Origin: Candidatus Omnitrophota bacterium
GTDB lineage: Bacteria; Omnitrophota; Gorgyraeia; Velamenicoccales; Velamenicoccaceae
Assembly (NCBI GenBank): GCA_020052645.1
Contig: JAGVOQ010000031.1
Location: 35,818-99,817 of the forward strand
Direction of reading: 5' to 3'
DNA length: 64,000 nt
Part shown: one piece after another, positions 6,326-56,790 of the stretch
Layout of the letters: the number at the start of each line of letters is the position of its first letter
Position numbering within the stretch: position 1 is the stretch's first letter
Notes under the pieces: model-generated
What the model was told of the DNA's origin: nothing
Database searches by the model: none
The model's input: only the letters and a program-made list of their open reading frames with translations
Position numbers and translations under genes: made by a program

Positions 6326-6525
6326 CAGGGAACAAAAATCAGGCAACAGGTATCAGAAAAATCATTAAATGAATCTACTTAAATCCGTATATCGAAATCC
6401 GAAACAGGCTTTTTAAAAAAGCAATATTTCTGATTGAATCCCAAACTTTGAATTTATTAAATCCCCAGCCCCTAAGCTATTTTTTGTTTCCTTTTACTGT
6501 TACCCGATACCCGCTACCTGTTACC
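6326..6525. repeat. Heptad-array inverted element between birA and uvrB
   Basis: TGTTACC|CGATACC|CGCTACC|TGTTACC at 6498-6525; CAGGGAA|CAAAAAT|CAGGCAA|CAGGTAT at 6326-6353. Confidence 0.75.
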
Positions 6526-8494: not shown

Positions 8495-8708
8495 TTAGTC
8501 TATAGTCAATAGCTTATAGTAAATAGTTACTTGGGGAGACCAAAAGACTTAAATCATAAAAAAATGAGTATTTAAAAAGGACAACTTTTGAATACTCAAA
8601 ATAAGATTTCTGCTGAATCGCGATATTTTAATCTACTAAATTATGTTTAAAAATAAGTTCTTTAAAGGACTTATTTTAATCTATCGTCTATAGTCTATCG
8701 ACTATAGA
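8495..8708. repeat. Heptad-array inverted element between uvrB and nadC
   Basis: TTAGTCT|ATAGTCA|ATAGCTT|ATAGTAA|ATAGTTA at 8495-8529; CTATCGT|CTATAGT|CTATCGA|CTATAGA at 8681-8708. Confidence 0.85.
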
Positions 8709-9561: not shown

Positions 9562-12328
9562 TTAAGACTCCTTCCAGGCGCTTAATCATGGATTCTAATT
9601 CTTTGAGGCGCTCCTGTTCTTTCGAAACAACCTCACTTGGCGCGCTCTTCACAAAATTTTTATTCGACAATAAACCCTTCTTCTTTTCAGCCTGGCCTTT
9701 CAGTTCGTTAATCTCGCATCCCAGGCGTTCTTTTTCTTTTTTGATATCCACCAATCCTTCTAATAATAAATACACCTGAAGATCTTTATCTATCAAGGCG
9801 CTCAAAGAATTTTTAACAACCTCTTCGTGAGTCGTAATCTCTAAATTTTCGATCAAAGCCAAATGCTTAATCATACCGGATGCAGTCTCGAGCTTTTCCT
9901 TAAATGCCTGACGCGTCCATAAACGAACACTAATTTTTGCCGTTGGAGCCACTTTTAAGTCATGACGCATGAACCGCAATTGAAAAATGATTTCCTGAAC
10001 CCAGCTCATGAGCTTTAAAACTTCTTTATCCGTTTTAAGCTTTTCATACCGAGGCCAAGCCTCAAGGGCGATTGTCCGGTGCCTCTCTTTCATCGGTAGC
10101 TTGCTCGATATCTCATCTGTAATAAACGGCATAAACGGATGCAACAACAAAAGCGTCTTCTTTAAAACATAGAGAAGTACTTCTTGAGTATTTTTTTCAT
10201 CGATCGTCATTTTGGCAATTTCCAAATACCAATCACAAAAAGAATGCCAGAAAAAATTAAACAAAAGATTTACAGCTTCATTAAACTTAAAAGCGTCCAG
10301 GGCCTTTTCCACGCGGCGCGTTGTATCGTTAAGTTCAGAAATAATCCATCTATCCTGAATTTTTAAAGTGCCTTGATCGATGCTCTCTCCCGTAACCCCT
10401 TCCTTTAAATTCATAAGAATAAACCTGGAGGCGTTCCATATTTTATTGGAAAAATTTCTCCCCTGTTCAAAGCGTTCTTTCGATAAAAAAATATCAGAAC
10501 CGCTGGCCGCGATAGCGATAAGGCTAAATCTTAAGGCATCGGTTCCGTAATCGTTAATAACATTCAAAGGATCGATGCTGTTACCTAAAGACTTAGACAT
10601 CTTTCTACCTTCACCATCCCGAACAGTCCCGTGGAGATAAACGTCGCTAAAGGGAACTTTACCCATAAATGCACAACCGGCCATAATCATGCGCGCCACC
10701 CAAAAAAAGATAATTTCCGGCGCTGTAGCCAATGTCGCAGTGGGATAAAAATAATCTAATTCTTTCTGCCTCTCGTTCCACGTTTCACGTTGCACGTCTT
10801 TTTCTTCTGACGTGTTACTTGTAACTTGCGACGTGTGACGTGTAAATGGCCATCCAAATGTCGCGAAAGGCCACAACCATGAAGAAAACCATGTATCAAG
10901 CACGTCCTCATCCTGAAAAATTTCCCTAGAACCGCAGACAGGACACATCTCAGGCGCCACGCGGGAAACGATCACCCCTTCATCAACAGCCAACTTTTGA
11001 CAATCTTTGCAATACCATACAGGCAATCGATGGCCCCACCAGATCTGACGCGAAATACACCAATCTTTAATATTCTCCATCCAGTTGAGATAGACTTTCA
11101 TCCAACGCTTAGGATGAAATTTAATTTCACCTGTCTTAACTGCCTTAAGTGCTGGCATGCTCAAGGGCTTCATCTTAACAAACCACTGCTTGGATAAATA
11201 GGGCTCAACAACAGTATGGCACCTGTAACAATGCCCGACCGCGTGTTTATGAGGCTCAATTTTTTCCAGTAACTTGCGCTCTTTCAAATCTTCGACAATG
11301 GCTTCCCTGGCTTCAAAACGATCCATACCGGCATACGCGCCCGCCAAAGCATTTAAAATCCCATCAGGATTCATGATATTAATAAACTCTAGATTGTGGG
11401 TTTTGCCGACCAGATAATCATTAGGGTCATGCGCCGGCGTCACTTTGACGGCCCCGGTCCCGAATTTTTTGTCCACCATATCGTCAGCAATGATTTCTAT
11501 TTCACGCTCCATTAAAGGCAAAATGATCTTTGATCCGATCAAATGTTTATATCTTTTATCTTTGGGATTGACGGCAACGGCGGTATCACCCAGCATCGTT
11601 TCAGGACGCGTCGTCGCCACCACGATATAGTCAATAGTCGATAGTCTATAGTCGATAGTTTTTTTACTTTTGGCGTGAGACGTGGAACGTGAAACATGAG
11701 GCTGCTTTAACGGATATTTTATATAATAAAGATTTCCCTCGAGCTCATGATGCGGCGCTTCTTCGTCAGCCAGTGCTGTTTGACAACGCGGGCACCAGTT
11801 AATAATATAATCCCCCCGGTAGATCAATCCTTTCTCATACAGTCTAACAAAGACATCGATCACGGCGACGGAATAATCTTCATCCATCGTAAAACGCTCT
11901 CTAGACCAATCACAACTGGCGCCCATGCGCTTGAGTTGGTGAATGATGGTTGAGCCATGTTCTTCTTTCCAATGCCAAACTCGTTTTAAGAAATCCTTCC
12001 TACCTAAATCATGCCGGTTAAGGCTCTCTTTAGCCAATTGTCTCTCAACAACATTTTGAGTCGCAATACCGGCGTGATCTGTCCCAGGCATCCAGAGTGC
12101 TTCATACCCCTGCATACGCCGATAGCGTATAAGAATATCTTGAATAGTATTATTTAAGGCATGGCCCATGTGAAGAATTCCCGTCACATTAGGCGGAGGG
12201 ATGACGATGCAATAAGGTTTCTTCTTCGGGTCAACCGTTGCGTGAAAAACAGAAGGATCCGACCACAAGGCCGTCCATTTTTCTTCCACTTCCTTTGGAT
12301 TATATTGAGGCATTAACTCTTGATTCAT
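9548..12328 (-). CDS. valS: Valyl-tRNA synthetase
   Basis: PPPNVTGILHMGHALNNTIQDIL; MSKSLGNSIDP; VATTRPETMLGDTAVAVNP; probable start MNQELMPQYNPKEVEEKW at 12328. Confidence 0.97.
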   Translation of the reverse strand: MNQELMPQYNPKEVEEKWTALWSDPSVFHATVDPKKKPYCIVIPPPNVTGILHMGHALNNTIQDILIRYRRMQGYEALWMPGTDHAGIATQNVVERQLAKESLNRHDLGRKDFLKRVWHWKEEHGSTIIHQLKRMGASCDWSRERFTMDEDYSVAVIDVFVRLYEKGLIYRGDYIINWCPRCQTALADEEAPHHELEGNLYYIKYPLKQPHVSRSTSHAKSKKTIDYRLSTIDYIVVATTRPETMLGDTAVAVNPKDKRYKHLIGSKIILPLMEREIEIIADDMVDKKFGTGAVKVTPAHDPNDYLVGKTHNLEFINIMNPDGILNALAGAYAGMDRFEAREAIVEDLKERKLLEKIEPHKHAVGHCYRCHTVVEPYLSKQWFVKMKPLSMPALKAVKTGEIKFHPKRWMKVYLNWMENIKDWCISRQIWWGHRLPVWYCKDCQKLAVDEGVIVSRVAPEMCPVCGSREIFQDEDVLDTWFSSWLWPFATFGWPFTRHTSQVTSNTSEEKDVQRETWNERQKELDYFYPTATLATAPEIIFFWVARMIMAGCAFMGKVPFSDVYLHGTVRDGEGRKMSKSLGNSIDPLNVINDYGTDALRFSLIAIAASGSDIFLSKERFEQGRNFSNKIWNASRFILMNLKEGVTGESIDQGTLKIQDRWIISELNDTTRRVEKALDAFKFNEAVNLLFNFFWHSFCDWYLEIAKMTIDEKNTQEVLLYVLKKTLLLLHPFMPFITDEISSKLPMKERHRTIALEAWPRYEKLKTDKEVLKLMSWVQEIIFQLRFMRHDLKVAPTAKISVRLWTRQAFKEKLETASGMIKHLALIENLEITTHEEVVKNSLSALIDKDLQVYLLLEGLVDIKKEKERLGCEINELKGQAEKKKGLLSNKNFVKSAPSEVVSKEQERLKELESMIKRLEGVLSAFK

Positions 12329-17189: not shown

Positions 17190-17410
17190 AGGTTTCTTAA
17201 AGTTCCATTAAGTTCCGTAAGGTTTCATAAAGTTACTTTAAAAAATGTGGAACCCCACGGGTTTACGCCCGTGGCACCTTTCTTTTTAAAGATTCCTCCC
17301 GTTGGGCGGAATCCTGCCCGAACGCCATTCATCTACGGCTTTACAACCGTGGCGTTCTGGATGCAGGACACCTTCAAAGAGCATAAAGCAACATAAAGAA
17401 ACCTTCGCAA
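17190..17410. repeat. 10-bp-period inverted array element
   Basis: TTTCTTAAAG|TTCCATTAAG|TTCCGTAAGG|TTTCATAAAG|TTACTTTAAA versus AGCATAAAGC|AACATAAAGA|AACCTTCGC|AACATT; internal CCACGGGTTTACGCCCGTGG hairpin. Confidence 0.75.
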
Positions 17411-17416
17411 CATTAA

Positions 17417-18487
17417 TCAAAATCCTATCGCCTTTAAAATTGATTTTAACTCCGGCTTAAGCACTTTAGGACGTTTAATTGACTGAATAGCTCTATCAGG
17501 GTCTTTAAGACCATGCCCTGTTAAGATACAAACAATTTTTGTGCTCTCGCGGTTAACTTTTTCTTTTTTAAAAAATCCTCTTTGGGCTAACTTTAAAATA
17601 CCTGCCACAGAAGCCGCGGAAGCAGGCTCAACAAAAACCCCTTCGTAACGAGCTAAAATCTTATATGCATCTAAAATTTCTTTGTCTGTCACCGACTCAA
17701 TGAGCCCTCTTGATTCATCACGCGCCAAGACAGCCTGCTTCCAACTGGCAGGATTGCCGATTTTTATGGCTGTCGCTATTGTTTGTGGCGCTTTAATAAT
17801 CTTATCTTTTACGATCGGCGCAGAACCCGCCGCTTGAAATCCAAGCATTCGAGGCAACTCTCCTGAAATTAAACCCGTCTGCTTATATTCCTTGTACCCT
17901 TTCCAATAAGCGGTAATATTACCTGCATTACCAACAGGGATGGCATGATATTGCGGCGCGCCTTCCAAATCATCACAAATCTCAAAAGCACCGGTCTTCT
18001 GGCCTTCGATGCGATAAGGATTTAATGAATTCACCAACGTAATCGGATACTTCGATGTAATATCGCGCACTAAATTCAATGCATCGTCAAAATTTCCTTT
18101 GATGGCCAAAACCGTCGCCCCATGAATCAAAGCCTGAGCGAGCTTACCCATAGCGATAGCGCCATAAGGAAGCAAGACAACACACTTCAACCCCGCGCGA
18201 GCTGAATATGCAGCAGCCGAAGCAGAAGTATTTCCCGTCGAAGCGCACATAACGACTTTTGAGCCCTCTTCTTTGGCCTTAGAAATCGCCATGGTCATGC
18301 CGCGGTCTTTAAATGAGCCCGTCGGATTCATCCCGTCATATTTTAAATAAACGCGACAGCCGACATTTTCACTTATAAAAGGAGAAAAGATCAAGGGTGT
18401 GTGCCCTTCATTAAGGCTCACAACCGGCGTCATCTCCGTTACCGGTAAAAATTTTCTATAATGATGGATCAGCCCTTTCCAACTCAT
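17417..18487 (-). CDS. thrC: Threonine synthase
   Basis: [53 protein letters not shown]. Confidence 0.96.
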
Positions 18488-19781: not shown

Positions 19782-19973
19782 AACCTCCTAACATGCGGTC
19801 TTATTTATAAAAACGTGTTGATCATAGCATAAGACTATAACGTCCTAGGCCAACAAAAAAAGACCTAAAAACACGGCTCCGTCTTCGCTCGCATGGCCCG
19901 CGCCAAATAATCACTGGCCTTTGTTAAAATGCAATGATATGTCTGAAATTAATCCCGCGGCGCCGTTTAAAAG

Positions 19974-20048
19974 TCGGGGAGAGCGGACTTGAACCGCTGA
20001 CCCCCTGAACCCCATTCAGGTGCTCTAGCCAAACTGAGCCACTCCCCG
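19974..20048 (-). tRNA. tRNA-Pro(GGG)
   Basis: CGGGGAGTGGCTCAGTTTGGCTAGAGCACCTGAATGGGGTTCAGGGGGTCAGCGGTTCAAGTCCGCTCTCCCCGA cloverleaf; anticodon loop ATGGGGT. Confidence 0.95.
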
Positions 20049-20214
20049 TATAAAAAATTTACGGGCGCCGCGGGAAACCCCATTTTCCTCGACTAAATTT
20101 TCAAAAGAACAATTCTCTCGGAACTGTTCTTCGCTTTGCGCAAAACTACGCAGATGCTTGAGAGCCAAACTGAGCCATTCTCCGGTATCATCTCTAGAAT
20201 AAATTTTAAAAAAT

Positions 20215-20335
20215 GTTACAAAAGTTTCTTAAGGTTCCTTTATGTTCCTTGAGGTTACATTGTATAAAACAACTTTAAGCAACCTTATGCAACTTAAAGA
20301 AACTTTAAGAAACATAAAAATCAAATCTTATACGA
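20215..20335. repeat. 10-bp-period inverted array element
   Basis: GTTTCTTAAG|GTTCCTTTAT|GTTCCTTGAG|GTTACATTGT ... AACTTTAAGC|AACCTTATGC|AACTTAAAGA|AACTTTAAGA|AACATAAAAA. Confidence 0.8.
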
Positions 20336-20341
20336 AACCAC

Positions 20342-21340
20342 TTATTCAGCTTTTTTAGAACGTGTCATTAAAGATCTCACAGCGGCCTGAGGTGCTTTAT
20401 TTTTAAACAAAACACCGTACACGGCATTAATAATCGGCAAATCAACCTTATATTTTTTTCCTAAAAGATACGCTGCTTTTGCCGTCGGTACCCCTTCAGC
20501 AACCATCTTCATATGACCCATAATTTTTTTTAAACTTGATCCTTTACCAATTTTTTCACCGACAAAATGATTTCGGCTTAAAGGATTAAAACACGTCGTT
20601 ACCAAATCACCGAGACCGCTGATCCCGAAAAAAGTATCTTTTTTGGCGCCCATAGCCATGCCCAATCGCGCCATTTCCACCAACCCACGCGACAAAATAG
20701 CAGCCTTGGTATTCGTGCCAAATCCAAACCCATCAGAAATACCGCACGTAATGGCGATGATATTTTTAAGGCTCCCTCCCAACTCAACCCCGACCACGTC
20801 ATCGTTGGTGTAAATACGAAATGCAGGCGTCATAAAAAGATTTTGTAACCGCGAACCGAATTCAGGATCTTTTGTCGCAACGACCGCTGTCGTCGGAATT
20901 CCATGCACGACTTCTTGCGCAATCGTCGGCCCTGACAAAACCCCGACTTGCGCCCCAGGCCAAACATCATGAACAACTTCCGACATACGCTTCAGCGTCT
21001 TGTTCTCTATCCCCTTGACAACACTGACAACCGAAATACGCGATGAAACATAGAATTCTGCGCCTCGCTCAAGAATACTTCTTAGATACTGAGAAGGGAC
21101 CGCCAAGACAACCAGATCGCAAGACAAAGCACTTTCAAGATCTGACGTGATCCGAATCTCATGAGGCAGCTTGACGCCTTTTAAAAAATTCGGGTTGATT
21201 CTCTTTTTTTCCAATATTTCGGCATAATCAGCAAAGGCGCTCCATAGAGTGACATCCAATCCTTTTTTACTCAAAAGGATAGCCAACGTCGTCCCCCACC
21301 CGCCATCACCCAAAATTGTTATTTTTTTATTAAGGCCCAC
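20342..21340 (-). CDS. gpsA: NAD(P)-dependent glycerol-3-phosphate dehydrogenase
   Basis: ITILGDGGWGTTLAILLSKKGLDVTLW; VSVVKGIENKTL; LSGPTIAQEV. Confidence 0.96.
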   Translation of the reverse strand: MGLNKKITILGDGGWGTTLAILLSKKGLDVTLWSAFADYAEILEKKRINPNFLKGVKLPHEIRITSDLESALSCDLVVLAVPSQYLRSILERGAEFYVSSRISVVSVVKGIENKTLKRMSEVVHDVWPGAQVGVLSGPTIAQEVVHGIPTTAVVATKDPEFGSRLQNLFMTPAFRIYTNDDVVGVELGGSLKNIIAITCGISDGFGFGTNTKAAILSRGLVEMARLGMAMGAKKDTFFGISGLGDLVTTCFNPLSRNHFVGEKIGKGSSLKKIMGHMKMVAEGVPTAKAAYLLGKKYKVDLPIINAVYGVLFKNKAPQAAVRSLMTRSKKAE

Positions 21341-56589: not shown

Positions 56590-56790
56590 CACAAGTTCAA
56601 AAATCACATGTTTAATAACTTATATACAAGAAACCCTAAACACTAAACTCTAAATCCTAAACAAACCCAAAATCTAAAAGTTTAAATTTAAAAAAATATT
56701 TTTGTTTTGAGTTTTGTATTTATTTAGAGTTTAGTATTTTGGGTTTAGAGTTTAACCTTATGACCTTATGACGTTGTGACCTTTGTACTT
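56590..56790. repeat. Heptad-array inverted element between gatB and gatA
   Basis: CCCTAAA|CACTAAA|CTCTAAA|TCCTAAA|CAAACCC|AAAATCT at 56634-56675; TTTAGAG|TTTAGTA|TTTTGGG|TTTAGAG|TTTAACC at 56723-56757. Confidence 0.87.

Follow-up and report, generated by a model that had tools for sequence, protein, structure and literature searches.

The closest described relatives of the locus studied here are the intervening sequences (IVSs) of 23S rRNA in Leptospira, Coxiella and others, selfish inserts with inverted ends whose open reading frame (ORF) belongs to the same protein family (S23p/IVP). These IVSs are located in rRNA, and their ends have been described as forming an RNA stem that RNase III cleaves. 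For the Coxiella IVS, two to four heptamers (GACAGAT) before the ORF are reported, in strain-variable number, and for a Xanthomonas protein a homopentamer of four-helix bundles; the paper does not appear to extend the heptamers to a wider architecture (PMC4990558). The IVP family, its pentamer, its occurrence in rRNA IVSs and cas loci, and the heptamers before the Coxiella ORF are already published. No description of the general array–IVP architecture was found in searches of an open library.

Several other systems resemble the elements in part. Avd of diversity-generating retroelements (DGRs) has the same fold and five chains (4dwl, 8ub7). MITEs and REP/REPIN palindromes likewise combine small, dispersed inverted copies that lack an ORF with a single full copy in the same genome, but in the present case the ends are arrays of four to five short units instead of one conserved inverted repeat, and the partner protein corresponds to no known transposase. 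Membership of the IS200/IS605 or REP elements, which are not known to make a target duplication and have Y1-processed ends, was rejected in view of 5-bp duplications and of a genome (G007) without Y1. Iteron and centromere arrays (ParR, 10–11 bp; omega heptads) are short direct and inverted repeats read by a ribbon-helix-helix oligomer, whereas IVP is a four-helix bundle and its arrays are mobile element ends, not a single partition site. Cyanobacterial heptanucleotide repeats, including those in the P6b stem of the Nostoc trnL intron (TDNGATT, NNTGAGT), are degenerate inverted heptads whose origin was left unexplained (PMC4476775). Nostoc IVP elements also carry heptad arms, and ORF-less copies of these arms occur, a likeness by description.

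Unlike the 23S rRNA IVSs, the elements analysed here are intergenic and dispersed, carry arrays on both sides with a period of 7–10 that depends on the protein clade, and show target duplications and ORF-less copies. In the window (the whole stretch of 64,000 nucleotides of Candidatus Omnitrophota DNA that was analysed), the array next to gpsA is situated between tRNA-Pro and gpsA, not inside a 23S rRNA gene (Table 1). A periodic inverted array of degenerate decamers had been predicted at this site; it is real and slightly larger than claimed, the left arm comprising the four predicted units plus one. The core of the right arm is GNAAC, except that the first unit reads ACAAC. When the 5 + 5 units were stacked and compared with dinucleotide shuffles, the predicted period was significant (p = 10, z = 11.3), every other period giving 4 or less. 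When the whole window was scanned for inverted periodic arrays, two shuffled windows scored 8.5 bits at best and the gpsA array was the top p = 10 site (13.56 bits), followed by a site at 17193–17421 (11.19 bits). Four inverted heptad arrays were also clearly above the shuffled windows, which bears out the description of the decamers as a second periodic class beside heptads.

Table 1. Arrays, loops and neighbouring genes in the window
Feature	Position	Strand	Remarks
gpsA array, left decamer arm, five GTTNC-N5 units	20215..20263		unit starts 20215, 20224, 20234, 20244, 20254; spacing 9, 10, 10, 10
gpsA array, loop between arms, without ORF	20264..20268		hence an ORF-less copy
gpsA array, right decamer arm, five NAAC-N5 units, inverted relative to left arm	20269..20318		unit starts 20269, 20279, 20289, 20299, 20309; exact 10-bp steps
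gpsA, 3' end towards the array	20342..21340	-	
tRNA-Pro(ggg), flanking the array opposite gpsA	19973..20048	-	
Second decamer copy, left arm, five GTTNC units	17192..17241		exact 10-bp steps
Second decamer copy, loop	17242..17377		136 bp of GC-rich palindromes, without IVP gene
Second decamer copy, right arm, GCAAC, GAAAC, GCAAC	17378..17417		one 9-bp step
Inverted heptad array, without IVP gene	6329..6524		motif resembles arrays of own-genome IVP C35:5287 (similarity 0.95)
Inverted heptad array, CTATAG type, without IVP gene	8499..8708		no matching IVP in genome
Inverted heptad array, without IVP gene	10770..10844		motif resembles IVPs C52:12410 and C52:29516 (0.89-0.90)
Inverted heptad array, TTTAGAG type, without IVP gene	56634..56750		no matching IVP in genome

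BLASTN with the gpsA array as query found decamer arrays at no fewer than 17 dispersed places in the 1.7-Mb genome, well beyond the two loci of the original prediction; as the survey of the genome consisted of searches and stretches, the copy count is a lower bound. The copies consist of GTTNC-N5 units on the left and GNAAC-N5 units on the right, with a mode of five units per arm, mostly exact 10-bp steps and all four bases in use at the N positions. They are 84–94% identical to the copy in locus L012, and one of them (L016) lies in an operon gap between genes that we take, by eye, to be rplL and rpoB. Six aligned copies are alike exactly from TTTTAAGGTTTC to GTAACCT and have unrelated flanks; since homology stops at the array ends, the array itself is the dispersed unit. 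In five relatives tRNA-Pro directly adjoins gpsA and the array is absent, so that the gpsA site is empty there; this absence from relatives was all that the target-duplication test yielded at gpsA. An Rfam search of the window returned tRNAs only. Between the intact tRNA-Pro and the array, at window positions 20155–20190, lies a partial tRNA-Pro gene end (GAGAGCCAAACTGAGCCATTCTCCGG), which an integration event at the tRNA may have left behind, and a similar fragment occurs near gpsA in locus L255.

Elsewhere in the genome, decamer arms with the same GTTNC/GNAAC arrays as the gpsA copy (C52:22905–23405) flank a 149-aa ORF, the decamer IVP (C52:22966), which matches PF05635 (23S_rRNA_IVP) with 58.8 bits against a curated cut-off of 33.8. 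There are six PF05635 genes in the genome and inverted arrays flank all six; in one case the units are decamers, and in the other five they are heptads whose cores differ. Five of the six, with differing array motifs, are gathered in a hot spot of about 18 kb (G000:C52:12410–29836). With no IVP gene between their arms, the two decamer copies in the window were classed as ORF-less derivatives and not as full elements, and decamer arrays also occur in three genomes (G025, G059 and G061) where no decamer-clade IVP was found. Because the heptad motifs at 6329 and 10770 match own-genome IVPs, the two periodic classes in the window look like one phenomenon, namely ORF-less copies of different IVP elements. 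The motif of a single arm near 11666 also matches the IVPs C52:12410 and C52:29516 (about 0.9).

Modelled with AF2 (pLDDT 87.7), the decamer IVP is a four-helix bundle that matches 2gsc (TMt 0.93, rmsd 1.2), and also 2rld, Avd (4dwl) and Avd in the Avd–RT DGR particle (8ub7, 8ub8), although sequence identity to Avd is only about 6%. Each of 2gsc, 2rld and 4dwl was deposited with five chains. No recognised nuclease or recombinase motif was found in the IVP. By analogy with the solved relatives, a five-fold ring facing about five units per arm suggests one subunit per unit, an arrangement that would fit well only for the decamer family, given an overall mode of four units per arm.

Inverted arrays are associated with IVP genes far beyond this genome. 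Among 170 IVP loci from bacteria, archaea, plasmids and viral contigs, chosen by protein similarity only, 153 were flanked by inverted arrays at z ≥ 7: 33 of 35 in the own genome and relatives, all 11 on plasmids (cyanobacteria, Riemerella, Azospirillum), 65 of 78 in named genomes that span many phyla, archaea (Methanophagales) among them, where no array was detectable at z ≥ 7 for the other 13, and 44 of 46 on viral contigs, some of which are near-copies of one another, so that the counts are of loci and not of independent events. Control positions reached this threshold in 3 of 229 cases at 750 bp and 2 of 65 at 700 bp. PF05635, annotated as 'four helix bundle protein' or 'S23 ribosomal protein', is widespread and has no known function; with this association it would acquire a cognate nucleic-acid site at some 90% of the tested loci, as well as a role that can be put to the test. 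The period at IVP loci is predominantly 7, with 8, 9 and 10 as minor classes and one call of 13, and the core motif differs at nearly every locus. Over all loci, the number of units per arm has its mode at four, followed by five and a sharp fall-off; 'exactly five units' was accordingly dropped as a general rule, being true of the decamer family.

IVP elements were also found between cas genes in three loci (L064, L071 and L072; cas6/cas4, cas10/cmr3). Since all three are array-flanked, they look like insertions and not like cas components, and such insertion may be the reason why IVP has been counted among the cas-associated genes; 18 (as 23S_rRNA_IVP) have been described in cas loci, often near cas4 or cas6 (PMC3936711). 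One kind of element would link the heptamers before the Coxiella ORF, the heptad arrays of Nostoc plasmids and the IVP genes of cas operons. A tblastn search of phage records with one query gave no IVP match. In viral contigs, 104 stretches (L262–L365) contain at least three tandem TAACTGA units, some pairs lying 432–439 bp apart on the same strand; with an IVP gene within 250 bp at 0 of these 104 loci, the TAACTGA heptamers of Beggiatoaceae are unsupported as IVP arrays.

Both the period and the motif of the arrays are inherited with the protein. Homologues within the clade of the decamer IVP (about 42–69% identity) have period-10 arrays, mostly with a GTT-like core, the exceptions being L201, which has indels and scores best at 9, and L210 and L221, whose cores have drifted; homologues outside the clade have period 7 or 8. 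On a tree of 161 IVPs, in which many deeper forks lack resolution, the eleven period-10 rows form one side of a branch with support 100/99, and period 10 requires 1 change compared with 10.8 in shuffles. Among 130 heptad loci, motif similarity rises with protein identity in the range below 80% (Mantel r = 0.285, null s.d. 0.026, maximum 0.092), a correlation confined to motifs read in the inward direction from both ends. Such co-inheritance is the trace to be expected if the protein recognised the array directly, and it provides a natural data set on how one fold reads many repeats. The gpsA array is probably a protein-binding array, as had been predicted, but a nucleoid-protein site set by the helical turn is unsupported. 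One-face binding through a step of about one helical turn had been proposed; relatives have mostly period 7, also 8 and 9, and the period follows the IVP clade, so that helical phasing cannot be a general rule and was rejected as the explanation.

Filled and empty versions of the same site were compared on cyanobacterial plasmids. In Trichormus and Scytonema (L067/L240), an insert of 428 or 414 bp consisting of arm, IVP gene and arm has GTAAT (5 bp) on both sides, and in N. linckia and Aulosira (L237/L238) the same site is uninterrupted, with flanks 97–99% identical. On a Nostoc plasmid (L244), an insert of about 417 bp lies between two copies of TTCTA, and a related plasmid (L068) is empty there. 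At these two plasmid sites, arrays plus IVP are a discrete mobile insertion with a 5-bp target duplication. Other comparisons were less clean: L068 and L245 differ by 506 bp with an overlap of only 3 bp, the L062 site is diverged or differently occupied, and two of five filled/empty comparisons, L072/L260 and L065/L261, reflect a different insert or divergence and were set aside as unusable. The plasmid copies lie between protein genes, at the clean sites between the stop and start codons of the neighbours, and the inserts encode nothing besides IVP, a transposase being absent. One arm of the Scytonema copy is shorter by two heptads, which accounts for 14 bp relative to Trichormus, so the number of units can change. 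Nostoc also has ORF-less copies with the same arms, in which the loop is short (L366) or contains IS200/IS605-like palindromes (L367, L368). At one junction in related Nostoc plasmids (L062, L241, L242), an IVP element, an ORF-less array or neither is present.

We therefore consider it likely that the array beside gpsA is a MITE-like copy, lacking an ORF, of a very small, IVP-encoded mobile element with array ends. The full element would consist of two inverted arrays of about four to five short units each as ends, with a core of only some bases and an element-specific period (here 10, in other elements mostly 7), and between them one gene for a PF05635/IVP four-helix bundle of about 120–150 aa. 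IVP would assemble as a pentamer, as its solved relatives do, and each pentamer may read one arm, one subunit per unit. The two arms would present the same double-stranded site in opposite orientation and might be brought together in a synapse, whereupon the DNA between and including both arms would be mobilised. Acting in trans on gene-less arms, IVP could have dispersed the copy at gpsA together with at least 15 further ORF-less copies. IVP may itself be the recombinase or may recruit one, and an element that lacks a recognisable transposase is of interest for its mode of movement. More tentatively, and with rather less confidence than disbelief, we propose that this is a class of very small autonomous elements across bacteria and archaea, in which a pentameric ring of four-helix bundles, the sole protein, is the mobility protein and identifies the element ends by counting periodic units, protein and array co-diverging until nearly each element has its own address code.

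Other explanations of the inverted arms were weighed against this mobile element. Folding of the gpsA array can give an imperfect hairpin (z about −4 for each of the two strands), as had been predicted, and ORF-less copies lie in operon gaps such as that of L016. The arms might then be kept for pairing in a transcript, as an RNase III site, terminator or mRNA stabiliser, in the manner of rRNA IVSs, since RNase III excises the 23S rRNA IVS (PMC4990558). Selection for pairing would, however, give covariation: in the decamer family, 16 of 71 pairs of mirrored N positions are complementary, where 26% would be expected by chance, and variable columns at 137 heptad and octad loci have a complementarity of 0.342 in the true register and 0.33–0.40 in the others. 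As the arms do not covary, the hairpin is not the conserved feature, and an RNA stem, which is how the ends of 23S rRNA IVSs are described, was rejected as the feature that is kept here. An RNA element is accordingly improbable, and the inverted layout is better read as one and the same double-stranded site in two orientations. Chance palindromes or ordinary tandem-repeat expansion would accord with the varying unit number of the Scytonema and Trichormus arms, but are hardly conceivable given the z of 11.3 at gpsA, the 153 of 170 IVP loci, the inversion on both sides and the negative controls. It is very improbable, too, that the arrays are operators through which IVP autoregulates its gene, ORF-less arrays marking other IVP-controlled genes of a regulon. 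Arrays near the IVP start codon and the intergenic position of many ORF-less arrays would suit such control, yet array and gene are missing as one piece, with a 5-bp duplication, from plasmid loci that are 97–99% identical, the IVP gene is followed by a second array downstream, and copies sit in unrelated contexts with homology ending at the array.

Two further possibilities retain mobility and assign the chemistry to another enzyme. The arrays could be passive targets or cargo of a transposase acting in trans, for example a REP-associated Y1. Among 59 relatives, Y1_Tnp is present in 37 of the 40 genomes with IVP compared with 11 of the 19 without (p = 0.003), and IS200/IS605-like palindromes occupy some loops (17242–17377, L013, L367, L368). 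Y1 elements are not known to make a target duplication on insertion, and the 5-bp duplications at the two clean sites are a misfit with this chemistry; moreover, motif and period follow IVP, and the genome G007 has 14 IVP matches and no Y1. We regard this explanation as a minor possibility. The match of the fold to Avd and to the Avd–RT particle, and the link of PF05635 to DGRs (PMC10053308), would also allow IVP to work, like Avd, with a reverse transcriptase (RT) supplied in trans. Against this, the own genome, about 90% complete, has no PF00078 RT despite its six IVPs, and RT is present in 9 of 40 genomes with IVP and 4 of 19 without (Fisher p = 1.0). RT presence being unassociated with IVP presence, RT dependence was rejected, and retromobility as a whole appears quite unlikely.

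Nesting was observed at several loci. Two loci of genome G025 (L227 and L231) have decamer arrays embedded in heptad arrays (TAGGGAT ... TTAGCG), and the right sides of the two loci are nearly identical; these elements are nested and were perhaps copied together. The palindromes in the loop of the second decamer copy of the window (17242–17377), which, judged by eye, resemble IS200/IS605 ends, have counterparts in the loops of another decamer copy (L013, 2605–2755) and of Nostoc heptad copies (L367 and L368, at about 640–750), and the IS200/IS605-like and array elements are probably two element types that have been nested repeatedly.
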